Both the position numbers and the translations under genes were made by a program. From a bacterium (GTDB taxonomy: Bacteria > UBP15 > UBA6099 > JAJRTR01), in assembly GCA_024278215.1 (NCBI GenBank), contig JAJRTR010000183.1, forward strand, positions 1-6,336: a stretch of 6,336 nucleotides of DNA, in the 5' to 3' direction. Shown here piece by piece: positions 1,974 to 6,336 of the stretch (position 1 is its first letter; every line of letters begins with the position of its first letter). Below the pieces are notes generated by a model. It had not been told where the DNA came from. It worked only from the letters and a program-made list of their open reading frames with translations, and did no database searches.

Positions 1974-1981
1974 CCTTGCCG

Positions 1982-4318
1982 ATGCCGCGAAAATGGGTGC
2001 GTGAAGCGATTGCGAAGCTTAAATTAACAGCCGATTACAAGGATCAGGCTGTTTATATAAAGGAGTATAAGCCCCGAAAAGCTGAATATGGAAATCTGAA
2101 TCAGCCGGTTTCGCACATCCTGGAAAGTAATCTCAAGAAAACAGGCATCCGAAAATTATACTCCCATCAGGTCGAGGCGATAAACAATATCATGTCCGGC
2201 AGGGACGTTGTTATAGTCACGGAAACGGCAAGTGGGAAATCGTTATGTTACAACATCCCTGTGTTGGAAGAAGTGTTGGGCGACGGCGATGCGAGGGCGT
2301 TGTATCTGTTTCCCACCAAGGCACTCGGGCAGGACCAGGCACGTATGCTGCACCATCTTATCGCACCTGATGCGGAATATGTCGAAGGAAAGTATGCTTA
2401 TACGCCGGCCTGCGGACACAGGAAAATAAAACTCGGCACTTATGACGGCGACACGCCCCGTGAGGTGCGGCCCGCGCTCAGACGTGCCGCGCAGATTATC
2501 CTTACGAATCCCGATATGCTTTCGCTCGGCATTCTGCCCAATCATAAACGTCTGTGGAGCAGGTTCTTCAGCAATTTGCGATACATCGTCATAGACGAAA
2601 TACATATATATCGCGGCGTATTCGGGTCGCATATAGCGAATCTTATGCGGCGGCTCGATAGAATATGCGAACACTATGGCGCACGCCCGATATTTGTTTG
2701 CTGTTCGGCAACAATAGCGAATCCCGCCGAACACGCTTCGAGGCTCACCGGGCGAGATGTCGTGCCGATTGTAAGAAGCGGAGCGCCTTCTGCCGGACGT
2801 ACGTTCGTAATGTGGAACCCGCCGCTGAGCGACGATGAGTCGGGAGCCGATACGCGCAGCCCGCTCGCCGAGACGATCGACCTTTTTACGCATTTCGTCG
2901 CGCGGGGAAAACGCACTATTGTCTTTGCACGTGCGAAGCCGACTGTCGAGGTGATATTGAAGTATGCGAGAGATAAGCTCATCGGCGGCAGCGTGCGGCC
3001 CGAAGCGATCGTCTCCTACCGCGCCGGTTATCTCGCTTCCGAACGGCGCGCCATCGAGAGGTCCCTCGCGGAAGGCGAGTTGCTGGGTGTCACCTGCACG
3101 AACGCGCTCGAACTCGGTGTCGATATCGGCAGCCTCGACGTGGCGATAATCAACGGTTGCCCGGGTTCGATAGCCGGTGTATGGCAGCAGGCGGGCAGGG
3201 CAGGGCGCAGAAGCAGCGGTTCCATATCTTTTTTTGTCGCTTACAATGAGCCGCTCGATCAATACTTCATGCGTCACCCCGAATACTTTTTCGGGCGTCC
3301 GGTCGAGGAGGCGATTGTGAATCCGGAGAATCCCTATATACTCAAACTCCATCTCCAGGCCGCAGCCGCGGAATTGCCGCTGAATAAATCCGAAAAAACT
3401 CTGTTCGGCGGCGATTTCATAAAACTTGTGCGGCAGATGATAAGCAAAGGCGATGTGCGCGAGACGCGCAGCGGCGCACACTGGGTAGGCGCGGATTTCC
3501 CGGCATCTCAGATAAACATGCGTTCCGCTTCCTCGCATCGTTACGTTATCATGCTTCCGAACGGTAGTTTAATAGGCGAGATGGACGGTTCGACAGTTTT
3601 TCAGTACCTGCACGACGGCGCTGTCTACCTGCACCAGGGCAATTCTTATATAGTCGAGCATCTCGATCTTAAAGAAAAAATAGCGCATGTAAGGCAGCGT
3701 GTGGTCGATTATTACACGAGATCATTATCGAACGAAAGTATACTGGTCGACGAAACACTGCTGAAAAAGAAAATGGGACGTATGCCTGTTTATTTCGGCT
3801 ACGTGGACGTCACCAGCAGTGTGCATTCATATAAAAAGGTGCGCAGGCAGGATGATACGGTTTTGGGCTGGGAGGACCTTTTTTATCCCGAGGAAAAGCT
3901 ATGGACGCAGGGCTTCTGGTTTGTGCCGCCGGACAGCGTGATTCGAAAGGTGCAAAAAGAGGGTGTCGACATCGCCGGCGGCCTGCACGCCATCGAACAC
4001 GCCGCCATTTCACTGATGCCGTTCATGGCAATGTGCGACCGGGGTGATATCGGCGGTGTGTCTACAGACTCGCATCCCGACACCGACGGCAAACCCGCCG
4101 TCTTTATTCACGACGGCTACGAAGGCGGAATAGGGCTGTCCGAGACGTGCTATAATCGTATCGAAGAACTGCTCGGAAAAACACTCGAGTTGATTGAGGA
4201 CTGTCCGTGCAAGACCGGCTGCCCGTCGTGTATCCAGTCGCCGAAATGCGGCAACATGAACGAACCGCTCGACAAGGAGGCCGCTGTTATGATCCTTTCG
4301 GGGATACTTGCGAAATAG
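1982..4318 (+). CDS. mrfA: MrfA/YprA-family superfamily 2 DNA helicase with C-terminal Zn-cysteine cluster (DUF1998 type)
   Basis: Predicted ATP-driven DNA helicase of 778 residues. Counting from ATG 1982, the motifs are LYSHQVEAI (59-67), Walker A TASGKS (82-87), LFPTKALGQ (109-117), GTYDGDTP (152-159), LTNPDM (174-179), Walker B DEIH (205-208), SAT (242-244), TIVFAR (312-317), NALELGVDIG (374-383) and QQAGRAGRR (402-410). The C-terminal half carries the marks of this family: HAIEHA and MCDRGDIGG (669-692), HDGYEGGIGLSE (710-721), and a cysteine cluster at 741, 743, 747, 750 and 756 expected to hold zinc. Bacillus MrfA, of similar length, is a 3'-5' helicase that works with the nuclease MrfB in repair of mitomycin C damage; eukaryotic Hrq1 is related. 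No MrfB-like gene lies here, so the repair role is inferred from family only. Nothing essential is missing. An exported-protein gene follows on the same strand. Confidence 0.95.
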   Translation: MPRKWVREAIAKLKLTADYKDQAVYIKEYKPRKAEYGNLNQPVSHILESNLKKTGIRKLYSHQVEAINNIMSGRDVVIVTETASGKSLCYNIPVLEEVLGDGDARALYLFPTKALGQDQARMLHHLIAPDAEYVEGKYAYTPACGHRKIKLGTYDGDTPREVRPALRRAAQIILTNPDMLSLGILPNHKRLWSRFFSNLRYIVIDEIHIYRGVFGSHIANLMRRLDRICEHYGARPIFVCCSATIANPAEHASRLTGRDVVPIVRSGAPSAGRTFVMWNPPLSDDESGADTRSPLAETIDLFTHFVARGKRTIVFARAKPTVEVILKYARDKLIGGSVRPEAIVSYRAGYLASERRAIERSLAEGELLGVTCTNALELGVDIGSLDVAIINGCPGSIAGVWQQAGRAGRRSSGSISFFVAYNEPLDQYFMRHPEYFFGRPVEEAIVNPENPYILKLHLQAAAAELPLNKSEKTLFGGDFIKLVRQMISKGDVRETRSGAHWVGADFPASQINMRSASSHRYVIMLPNGSLIGEMDGSTVFQYLHDGAVYLHQGNSYIVEHLDLKEKIAHVRQRVVDYYTRSLSNESILVDETLLKKKMGRMPVYFGYVDVTSSVHSYKKVRRQDDTVLGWEDLFYPEEKLWTQGFWFVPPDSVIRKVQKEGVDIAGGLHAIEHAAISLMPFMAMCDRGDIGGVSTDSHPDTDGKPAVFIHDGYEGGIGLSETCYNRIEELLGKTLELIEDCPCKTGCPSCIQSPKCGNMNEPLDKEAAVMILSGILAK
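4202..4249 (+). other. Zinc-binding cysteine cluster of the helicase
   Basis: These codons encode CPCKTGCPSC followed by IQSPKC, that is C-x-C-x3-C-x2-C-x5-C near the end of the helicase. MrfA-type proteins carry such a cluster in their C-terminal domain, and it separates them from ordinary DEAD-box helicases. Which four of the five cysteines bind metal cannot be told from sequence. Confidence 0.75.
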
Positions 4319-4407: not shown

Positions 4408-4411
4408 GGAG
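4408..4411 (+). promoter_or_regulatory. Shine-Dalgarno site deciding a TTG start
   Basis: GGAG lies six bases before the TTG at 4418-4420. Starting there gives MITRKCFGTVAVLIAG, a normal signal-peptide beginning. The upstream in-frame candidates (TTG 4331, ATG 4346, ATG 4379) lack a good ribosome site and would put an acidic stretch (QTEDELE) ahead of the hydrophobic core. Confidence 0.6.
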
Positions 4412-4417
4412 ATTGTT

Positions 4418-6145
4418 TTGATCACACGGAAATGTTTCGGAACAGTTGCGGTACTGATCGCGGGAATAGTTGCATTTACAATATCTTTTTTCAATGATTG
4501 CGCGGCAGAATATTCTTCGGCGGTGCCGCCGGTCGAGGTGCATAGTGACGAAAAAGGCGATTATGTGATAGACCGCCCGTTTCCGCAATGGGTGCGTGAG
4601 GATGCCGCGGGAGAAGTGAACACGACCGAATGTGTGAAGGACGCGCGAATACCGCAGTGGGCGCTGCCGCCCGCGGTCGAACCGGTAAGATGTGCCGCGC
4701 TTAATGCCGAAAAGACGGAAATGTGGGCGGCCACCGCGAGTGGTGTTATATACATGGATCTCGCAGGCAAAAGGAAATTGTACTTCGCGGGCCGCCGCTG
4801 GCTTCCCGATGATGATGTCCTGTCTGTCGGCGTCGATAAGAACGGCGATGCTTATGTGAAAACAGCCGGTGGGACCGGCCTGATATCGAGGCGACCTATG
4901 ACACTCGAAGAGAAGGCGCTTTACTTCGAGCAGATAGCACAGGAACGTCACAACAGGGAAGGGATGATAACGAATTCGCCCCTGAAAACCGCCGGTGATG
5001 TGAACTCATATTATCTGAGCGACGACGACAACGATGGTCAGTGGACGGAGATGTACCTTGCCGCCGAGTGCTTCCGCTATGCCGTGACAAAAGACCCGGA
5101 AGCGCTGCGCAATGCTCGCGAATCATACAGTGCGATGAAAAAACTCCTGACGATAACGCCTGTAAAAGGATATGTCGCGCGCTCCGTGCTGTCTGCGGAT
5201 AAGTGCCCCGGAGCCGACCCCGAGAGATGGCGGATGCACGAGTCCGGCAAGCTGTGCTGGAAAAGCGATACTAGTAAAGACGAGTTGATCGGCCACTACC
5301 TGGGACTGCCCGTCTATTATGATCTTGTCGCCGATGACCGGGAACGCGCCGAGGTCCGCACTCTGATAAGGGACCTTACCGACTATATCGCGGACAACGG
5401 TTTCAGGCTGCTCGATGAAAATGGCAGAGTGACAACTTACGGCAACCTCGACCCGGAATGGGTCAACGGTCCGGTGGGCCGGCTCGGCGACCAGGGGCTC
5501 AACAGCCTCGCGGCGCTGGCTATCGTTATGTCGGCCTACAAAATAACGGGCGACGAAAAGTACTACGATGATTTTAAACGGCTGATAACAGATCACGCGT
5601 ATCACAGAAACGTGATGAAGGAAAAGGAAATATCCGACAGGTTCCAGGTGAATCATGACAGCGATGAAATGGCGGCGCTTGGTTTCTACAGCCTTCTTCG
5701 CTATATGGATAAGTCTAAACTCCGCGACAAGTATATACTCGAAGGCCTGAAGCGGTTGTGGCGACACGACCTGCCCGAGAGGAATCCTGAACAGATAATA
5801 ATCTACGGCGCTTTTGCGGGAAAGGATTTCGGACTCGATAAAGCGGTGGAAACGCTTATGGAGATTCCACTGGACCTGGTCGAGTGGGATGTTGTCAACA
5901 GCGGCAGGAAAGATATAATTGAGAATCGGAACCTCGACAGGACGGGCGAACACCAGAGCCGTGAGGTGCTGTCGTACACGGAAACAAGAACAATGAGATG
6001 GTCTGAGAATATGTATCAACTCGATGTGCGCGGCGGCGGCAGGAGTGAGATGGTGCCTACGTTCTGGCTGCTGCCGTACTGGATGGCGAGGTATCACGGG
6101 ATGATAAGATTACCGGATGCGGATCAGGCCGTTGGCCCGCAGTAA
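4418..6145 (+). CDS. Exported protein of unknown reaction: short propeller-like segment plus predicted (alpha/alpha) glycosidase-like domain
   Basis: From TTG 4418 the product has 575 residues (up to 604 from TTG 4331). Residues 1-30 form a Sec signal peptide with basic ITRK, hydrophobic VAVLIAGIVAFTISFF and a likely cut after DCAA; no lipobox is seen. Residues about 80-160 resemble one or two blades of a sensor-type propeller (MWAATASGVIYMDLAG, then VGVDKNGDAYVKT), too few for a closed ring. The rest is mainly helical with conserved-looking blocks: ERHNREGMI (176-184), SDDDNDGQWTEMYLAAE (201-217), DTSKDELIGHYLGLPVYYD (284-302), NHDSDEMAAL (412-421), EIPLDLVEWD (482-491) and FWLLPYWMARYHGMI (549-563). 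These recall a recurring uncharacterised family of exported proteins with an (alpha/alpha)-barrel look, suggesting a glycan lyase or hydrolase. That link is from memory and no catalytic residue can be assigned. The gene follows the helicase after 99 bases. Confidence 0.85.
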   Translation: MITRKCFGTVAVLIAGIVAFTISFFNDCAAEYSSAVPPVEVHSDEKGDYVIDRPFPQWVREDAAGEVNTTECVKDARIPQWALPPAVEPVRCAALNAEKTEMWAATASGVIYMDLAGKRKLYFAGRRWLPDDDVLSVGVDKNGDAYVKTAGGTGLISRRPMTLEEKALYFEQIAQERHNREGMITNSPLKTAGDVNSYYLSDDDNDGQWTEMYLAAECFRYAVTKDPEALRNARESYSAMKKLLTITPVKGYVARSVLSADKCPGADPERWRMHESGKLCWKSDTSKDELIGHYLGLPVYYDLVADDRERAEVRTLIRDLTDYIADNGFRLLDENGRVTTYGNLDPEWVNGPVGRLGDQGLNSLAALAIVMSAYKITGDEKYYDDFKRLITDHAYHRNVMKEKEISDRFQVNHDSDEMAALGFYSLLRYMDKSKLRDKYILEGLKRLWRHDLPERNPEQIIIYGAFAGKDFGLDKAVETLMEIPLDLVEWDVVNSGRKDIIENRNLDRTGEHQSREVLSYTETRTMRWSENMYQLDVRGGGRSEMVPTFWLLPYWMARYHGMIRLPDADQAVGPQ

Positions 6146-6228
6146 GCGACAACATGTTTAATGCCTTCTCCCTTATAAATGATCTTCCTGTACTCGTATC
6201 TGGACAGTACCAAGTTCTGGATAATACT
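6146..6228. other. Short convergent intergenic gap, no clear terminator
   Basis: This gap separates the end of the exported-protein gene from the stop of the minus-strand gene entering from the right. It contains a direct repeat TCTGGA (6199-6204 and 6216-6221) and an imperfect hairpin CAGTAC-CAA-GTTCTG (6205-6219). The nearest T-run (6236-6241) is 16 bases further on and inside the neighbouring gene, so this is not a standard intrinsic terminator. No coding signal is seen. Confidence 0.4.
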
Positions 6229-6336
6229 TTACCCCTTTTTTACTGATTTGCGAAGCTTGGCGAGTTCGACGGATAGGTCGATCCATTCGCCGGTAAGTTT
6301 TTTGAATTGCTTATAATTTGCTATTTGTTTTTTCAC
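6229..6336 (-). CDS. C-terminal end of a small protein, possibly transposase-associated (DUF6788-like)
   Basis: On the minus strand, 35 codons are open from the right edge to a TAA at 6231-6229. The peptide begins VKKQIANYKQFKKLTGEW and ends LAKLRKSVKKG. The spacing Y-x2-F-x2-L, then W-I-D-L-S-x-E-L-x2-L, predicts an amphipathic helix. It recalls the tail of small proteins often encoded beside transposases (DUF6788 type, from memory). The GTG at the very edge could in principle be a start, but a truncated larger gene is more likely. The part that would settle the identity lies outside the window. If right, a mobile element or its relic borders this locus. Confidence 0.5.
   Translation of the reverse strand: MKKQIANYKQFKKLTGEWIDLSVELAKLRKSVKKG

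Follow-up and report, generated by a model that had tools for sequence, protein, structure and literature searches.

The window that we analyzed (the whole stretch of 6,336 nucleotides) carries a gene for a protein made up of a putative export signal, a short beta segment and a large helical barrel, with the following features:

4418..6145, + strand: coding sequence of 575 amino acids, with a TTG start at 4418 and the stop codon at 6143-6145
4418..4507, + strand: putative signal peptide (residues 1-30, possible cleavage after CAA), judged from the sequence, its hydropathy and a low-pLDDT helix at residues 7-25
4538..4888, + strand: beta segment (residues 41-157), a shortened Reg_prop-type propeller with two blade-like units according to strands in the model, a weak 3v9f match, a Reg_prop profile match and the blade count
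4889..6115, + strand: predicted (alpha/alpha)6 barrel domain (residues 158-566), from AlphaFold2 of the domain alone and fold searches

A GGAG Shine-Dalgarno sequence (4408-4411) stands 6 nt 5' of the TTG start, and the N-terminus combines a positively charged n-region with one hydrophobic stretch, the top 19-residue hydropathy being 2.29 at residue 7 and the maximum beyond residue 40 being 1.16. We infer from these features of the sequence that the protein is exported. An earlier note on this DNA had described an open frame at 4418-6145 with a signal-peptide-like N-terminus, and both the sequence and the hydropathy bear this description out. In some relatives from other phyla, a motif scan found a lipobox-like motif in place of the plain signal peptide. 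The frame is not a chance one, since 27 related loci with up to 65% identity were found in public genomes and the family is present in all other genomes of the same order (6 of 6).

The gene begins 100 bases downstream of another forward-strand gene (1976-4315), which encodes a DEAD/DEAH helicase of the MrfA/YprA type with MrfA zinc-binding and HRQ1 winged-helix domains. On the reverse strand, positions 3-1772 encode an exported-looking TPR protein with a long middle part rich in proline, lysine, threonine and glutamate between two TPR blocks. The 3' end of the window (6195-6336) is a repeat that begins some 50 bases past the gene and of which the genome has about a dozen near-identical copies, many of them at contig ends; it is an insertion-sequence-like element that broke the assembly.

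No family in Pfam, NCBIfam or PHROGs matched the 575-residue protein, and its sole PDB sequence match below E 0.001 was a weak one of residues 100-168 to the Reg_prop propeller 3v9f. The relatives were likewise without an assigned family for the barrel. When 40 of them were compared with Pfam one by one, matches were obtained to Reg_prop (18), He_PIG (4) and DUF4434 (1), and those to the barrel were weak (C5-epim_C in 8 of 40, best E 0.015; GH127, best E 0.018); Pfam found no barrel family in 10 short or distant relatives, and NCBIfam gave none with E < 0.04 for 40 barrel domains. A PDB search with the domain profile found a weak, local similarity to GH146 (5opj, E 0.0017) in the region of the first inner helix. 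The gene's protein had no match in the plasmid and phage collections, and our literature searches found no paper in the searched library that describes the family. The impression recorded in the earlier note, that of a recurring family with no assigned reaction, was therefore correct. The note had also named a confident match to an enzyme family with a known reaction as counting against its proposal, and Pfam, NCBIfam and the PDB sequences yielded none.

We collected at least 81 barrel domains, some of them as little as 17% identical to the window's protein, and the lineages of the family comprise Myxococcota, 'Deltaproteobacteria', Planctomycetota, Hydrogenedentota, Bdellovibrionota and UBP15-type bacteria. 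Three more members are encoded in the window's own genome (L002, L003 and L004), one genome of another lineage gave nine family matches, and twelve chosen genomes had 5-17 matches each, some of which are fragments of one gene so that copy numbers are slightly lower. Evenly drawn samples contained the family in 25 of 146 genomes from the phylum of a Myxococcales locus and in 29 of 149 from the phylum of a Planctomycetales locus. One Planctomycetales genome carries a tandem pair of propeller-barrel genes (L019:5197-10023) that fall into different tree subclades. Large and represented in neither Pfam nor NCBIfam, the barrel family is a good candidate for a new enzyme family.

AlphaFold2 modeled the whole protein with 40 relatives at a pLDDT of 91.2 and the barrel alone with 81 relatives at a pLDDT of 95.1 and a pTM of 0.94, with beta strands at residues 41-161 and helices at 163-559, about twelve of them main helices. 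In this model, residues 158-566 are a confident (alpha/alpha)6 barrel, as the earlier note had supposed, and the fold search that it proposed returned mainly sugar-active (alpha/alpha)6 enzymes. The best Foldseek matches were cellobiose 2-epimerases (3vw5, E 2.7e-7), followed by GH76, GH146, a polysaccharide lyase and GH88, with GH9 also among the matched solved structures. VIA-align 2 placed 50 entries between Z 15.7 and 18.7 against the barrel, including 7tem (exported YPO2471; Z 18.7, rmsd 4.0, 312 aligned), CsCE (Z 18.6, rmsd 4.2, 311 aligned) and the GH76 protein BT2949 (Z 18.6, rmsd 4.0, 305 aligned), and neutral invertase, GH116, GH9 and others follow within about three Z units. Because these top structural scores tie, the fold searches are clear on the fold, not on the family. 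The solved structures matching the barrel are overwhelmingly carbohydrate-active; terpene cyclases and complement C3d have (alpha/alpha)6 barrels too, and the shared fold alone shows no function. A viral structure library held no useful match to the barrel protein.

Across relatives, 42-650 residues precede the barrel and form a full propeller, an Ig-like, DUF4434 or Cys-rich module or no module at all, with the barrel as the constant part; 36 of 80 relatives are without a propeller, and in Planctomycetota the barrel stands nearly alone in proteins of 458-497 amino acids with a short N-terminus. Since it occurs both alone and behind unrelated N-terminal modules, we regard the barrel as the functional core. 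The tail that follows it measures about 9 residues here and has a family median of 2. Two members with other architectures were seen: in a 2362-residue frame (L015:4573-11658), 1440 residues that include a proprotein-convertase P-domain come after the barrel, and a member from another lineage (L039:916-3207) probably has a DUF4434 module before the barrel and may thus combine two enzyme domains in one protein.

In the tree, all propeller forms make up one clade (100/99), within which the short forms of the window's order are a supported subclade (100/100); a second short form, L086, has a separate origin. By blade profile, the long propeller forms mostly have 4-7 blades, whereas the window protein and the relatives from its order have 2-3. 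Given the few blades and the nested position in the tree, a remnant, which was among the options raised in the earlier note, is the best reading of this segment, and the short propeller is a lineage-specific shortening.

The alignment of the 81 barrel domains brought out the sites listed below, which include all four blocks quoted in the earlier note (residues 201-212, 284-296, 412-421 and 549-563):

5021..5044, + strand: motif 1, residues 202-209 (DDDNDGQW), before and at the start of helix 206-224
5180..5182, + strand: R255, invariant (81/81 domains)
5267..5305, + strand: motif 2, residues 284-296 (DTSKDELIGHYLG), at the start of helix 287-303, with S286 and D288 in 80/81
5651..5680, + strand: block 3, residues 412-421 (NHDSDEMAAL), with E417 in 43/45 domains of the propeller clade and 0/36 of the rest
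5999..6001, + strand: W528, kept in 79/81
6062..6106, + strand: motif 4, residues 549-563 (FWLLPYWMARYHGMI), in the last barrel helix, with Y554 in 81/81, W555 in 93% and R558 in 91%

Only R255 and Y554 are fully invariant, D288 is the only column with Asp or Glu in 99% of the domains, and G251, G292 and G336 are each found in 79 of 81. An Asn or Asp occupies position 205 in every domain, and an Asp is found at 205 or 206 in 80 of the 81; as this Asp shifts between the two positions, no second carboxylate column is universal in the alignment. Glu is the residue at position 289 in 54 domains and Gln in 25. The propeller clade fixes further residues, namely R180, D204, N205, D206, W271, K282, H293, T339, R497 and D499. 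Conservation of the quoted blocks, for which the earlier note had proposed an alignment, differs between parts of the family: within the propeller clade, blocks 1-4 all lie above average (0.76, 0.63, 0.55 and 0.70 versus a domain mean of 0.41), whereas outside of it blocks 1 and 3 are average (0.19 and 0.27 versus 0.23) and S286-x-D288 and Y554 persist. The notion that the blocks line an active-site cleft agrees with the model insofar as their loops are predicted to precede inner helices, but block 3 is not conserved in the wider family. With inner and outer helices assigned from helix order (alternation), the loops preceding inner helices, which amount to 50% of the domain, hold 22 of 31 conserved polar or aromatic residues (hypergeometric p about 0.01). 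This placement fits one functional face of the modeled barrel and is modest evidence for it. The DxDxDG-like stretch DDDNDG in motif 1 is a possible Ca2+ loop. Homology to the Asp-Asp pair of GH76, for which the Trp register fits and the register of a T-G-D turn is off by three, is not claimed.

To place the barrel among known families, its profile was compared by hhalign with those of collected GH127, AGE, C5-epimerase, GH88 and GH76 members. Probabilities were 65% for AGE, 12% for C5-epimerases, 7.5% for GH76, 3.8% for GH88 and 3.5% for GH127, with column-shuffled controls at or below 0.6%, numbers that are rough because the profiles are small. Pairs of known families scored 97% (GH76-AGE), 96% (GH76-GH88 and GH76-GH127) and 80% (AGE-GH88), some only 11-62%. 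As far as such small profiles can tell, most known families are closer to each other than the barrel family is to GH76, GH88, GH127 and C5-epimerases, and these low scores make the barrel family a separate branch, with AGE appearing as its nearest neighbor among the families sampled by these same small profiles.

Gene neighbors differ among loci. Directly upstream of the gene, three close relatives from the order have a PMT_2-type glycosyltransferase gene, the only conserved gene partner that we found; downstream, three Myxococcota loci have in common genes for a Cys-rich protein and for an M3 peptidase, and the MrfA/YprA-type helicase is not kept beside the gene in relatives' loci. Around 20 distant members, we saw no enrichment of carbohydrate genes. 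The gene context neither supports nor excludes a glycan role.

We lean toward the view that the window's protein is exported and, as a stand-alone enzyme, uses its (alpha/alpha)6 barrel to act on a glycan. A glycoside hydrolase is the likeliest kind of enzyme; catalysis, hydrolysis and substrate are all putative. The barrel would be the catalytic module, and its substrate pocket would be formed by the loops before the inner helices, where the conserved polar and aromatic residues lie. As catalytic carboxylates, D288 and the Asp at 205/206 are the strongest candidates, R255, Y554, W209, W271 and W528 may bind the sugar, and the N-terminal module, here the shortened propeller, would be an interchangeable accessory part. 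A glycan enzyme is supported by the near-absolute conservation of Arg, Tyr, Ser, Asp and Trp residues in 81 highly divergent domains and by the weak motif-level matches to GH146, GH127 and C5-epimerase; the lack of carbohydrate-gene enrichment nearby, the Asp shift between 205 and 206 and the replacement of E289 by Gln in 25 of 81 domains count against it. We give slightly less than even chances to the wider proposal of a new, widespread family of exported (alpha/alpha)6 hydrolases or lyases that has its own catalytic set (Arg255, Ser286-x-Asp288, Tyr554 and Asp 205/206), has N-terminal modules that can be exchanged and has multiplied to many copies in several genomes from little-studied phyla.

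The barrel could instead be inactive and have a role at the cell surface in binding glycans, in adhesion or in matrix structure. Binding proteins commonly have propellers and Ig-like modules, and the missing conserved gene neighbors, the lipobox-like motif of several relatives and the failure of E417 and E289 to be retained family-wide would all suit such a role. However, the near-invariant R255, S286, D288, W528 and Y554 typify catalysis more than binding alone, and 5-17 divergent matches per genome suggest substrate diversification, so that we consider an inactive barrel rather unlikely. A polysaccharide lyase or uronic-acid C5-epimerase would rely on Tyr and Arg instead of two carboxylates, in line with R255 and Y554 as the sole fully invariant residues and with the weak C5-epim_C similarity described above. 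PL33 enzymes have an (alpha/alpha)6 toroid and catalyze with Asn, Tyr and His, but there the toroid is followed by a C-terminal beta-sheet domain where the window's protein stops right past the barrel (PMC11848413). Together with the absence of any His above 64% conservation in the 81 domains and the weak C5-epimerase profile comparison (probability 12%), this makes a lyase or C5-epimerase quite improbable.

The best Foldseek matches (cellobiose 2-epimerases) and the top profile-profile score among known families (probability 65%) would both speak for an AGE-type sugar 2-epimerase or isomerase, yet exported AGE-type epimerases would be unusual, PF07221 is unmatched, and we judge this assignment to be very unlikely. 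Two essential histidines are conserved in the AGE superfamily (PMC5726027), whereas no His column of the barrel family exceeds 64%. The earlier note had offered a surface sensor as an alternative. In such a sensor the propeller would detect a ligand and signal, and its blades are of the Reg_prop type known from sensor kinases with solved structures. This idea was not supported and strikes us as extremely improbable: no kinase or output domain follows the barrel in any member seen (median tail 2 residues), the protein itself ends about 9 residues past the barrel, 36 of 80 relatives have no propeller and the window's protein has a shortened one, and no receptor or kinase partner was seen in the neighborhood loci of the relatives examined.

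The family has many paralogues per genome and is modeled in neither Pfam nor NCBIfam, which leaves a sizeable annotation blind spot in Myxococcota, Planctomycetota and candidate phyla. Should the family prove to be a new one among the CAZymes, it would add a catalytic layout to the (alpha/alpha)6 enzymes, and the Planctomycetota forms of 458-497 amino acids, which consist of only a short N-terminus and the barrel, make the family directly testable.

Among known systems, AGE enzymes (cellobiose 2-epimerase, N-acylglucosamine 2-epimerase and YihS) resemble the window's protein in their (alpha/alpha)6 barrel, the best Foldseek matches and a tied VIA Z of about 18.6. They differ in their catalytic His pair, which a comparison by alignment columns of the 81 domains did not find conserved here, and the window's family is exported and has extra loops; PF07221 (AGE) matched neither the window's protein nor anything in genome G000. 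The alpha-1,6-mannanases of GH76 share the fold (Z 18.6-19.2) and, where an inner helix begins, a motif containing Asp that comes just ahead of a Trp, but this motif is a DD pair in GH76, and positions 205/206 are ND or D plus a small residue in nearly all members here. In genome G000, PF03663 (GH76) and PF07944 (GH127/GH146) had no match and PF07470 (GH88/GH105) a single one on another contig (C54). The beta-L-arabinofuranosidases of GH127/GH146 are alike in fold type and in the local similarity at the first inner helix (5opj); they have conserved zinc-binding/catalytic cysteines, unlike the window's family, in which no Cys column rises above 50% of the 81 domains. PL33 and related two-domain lyases are set apart by the C-terminal beta-sheet domain that the window's protein lacks. 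The Reg_prop sensor propellers of hybrid two-component systems share the blade sequence type of the propeller clade, but the window's protein has no kinase family and no hydrophobic segment past residue 40, and in the barrel family the propeller is a dispensable module that is shortened here.
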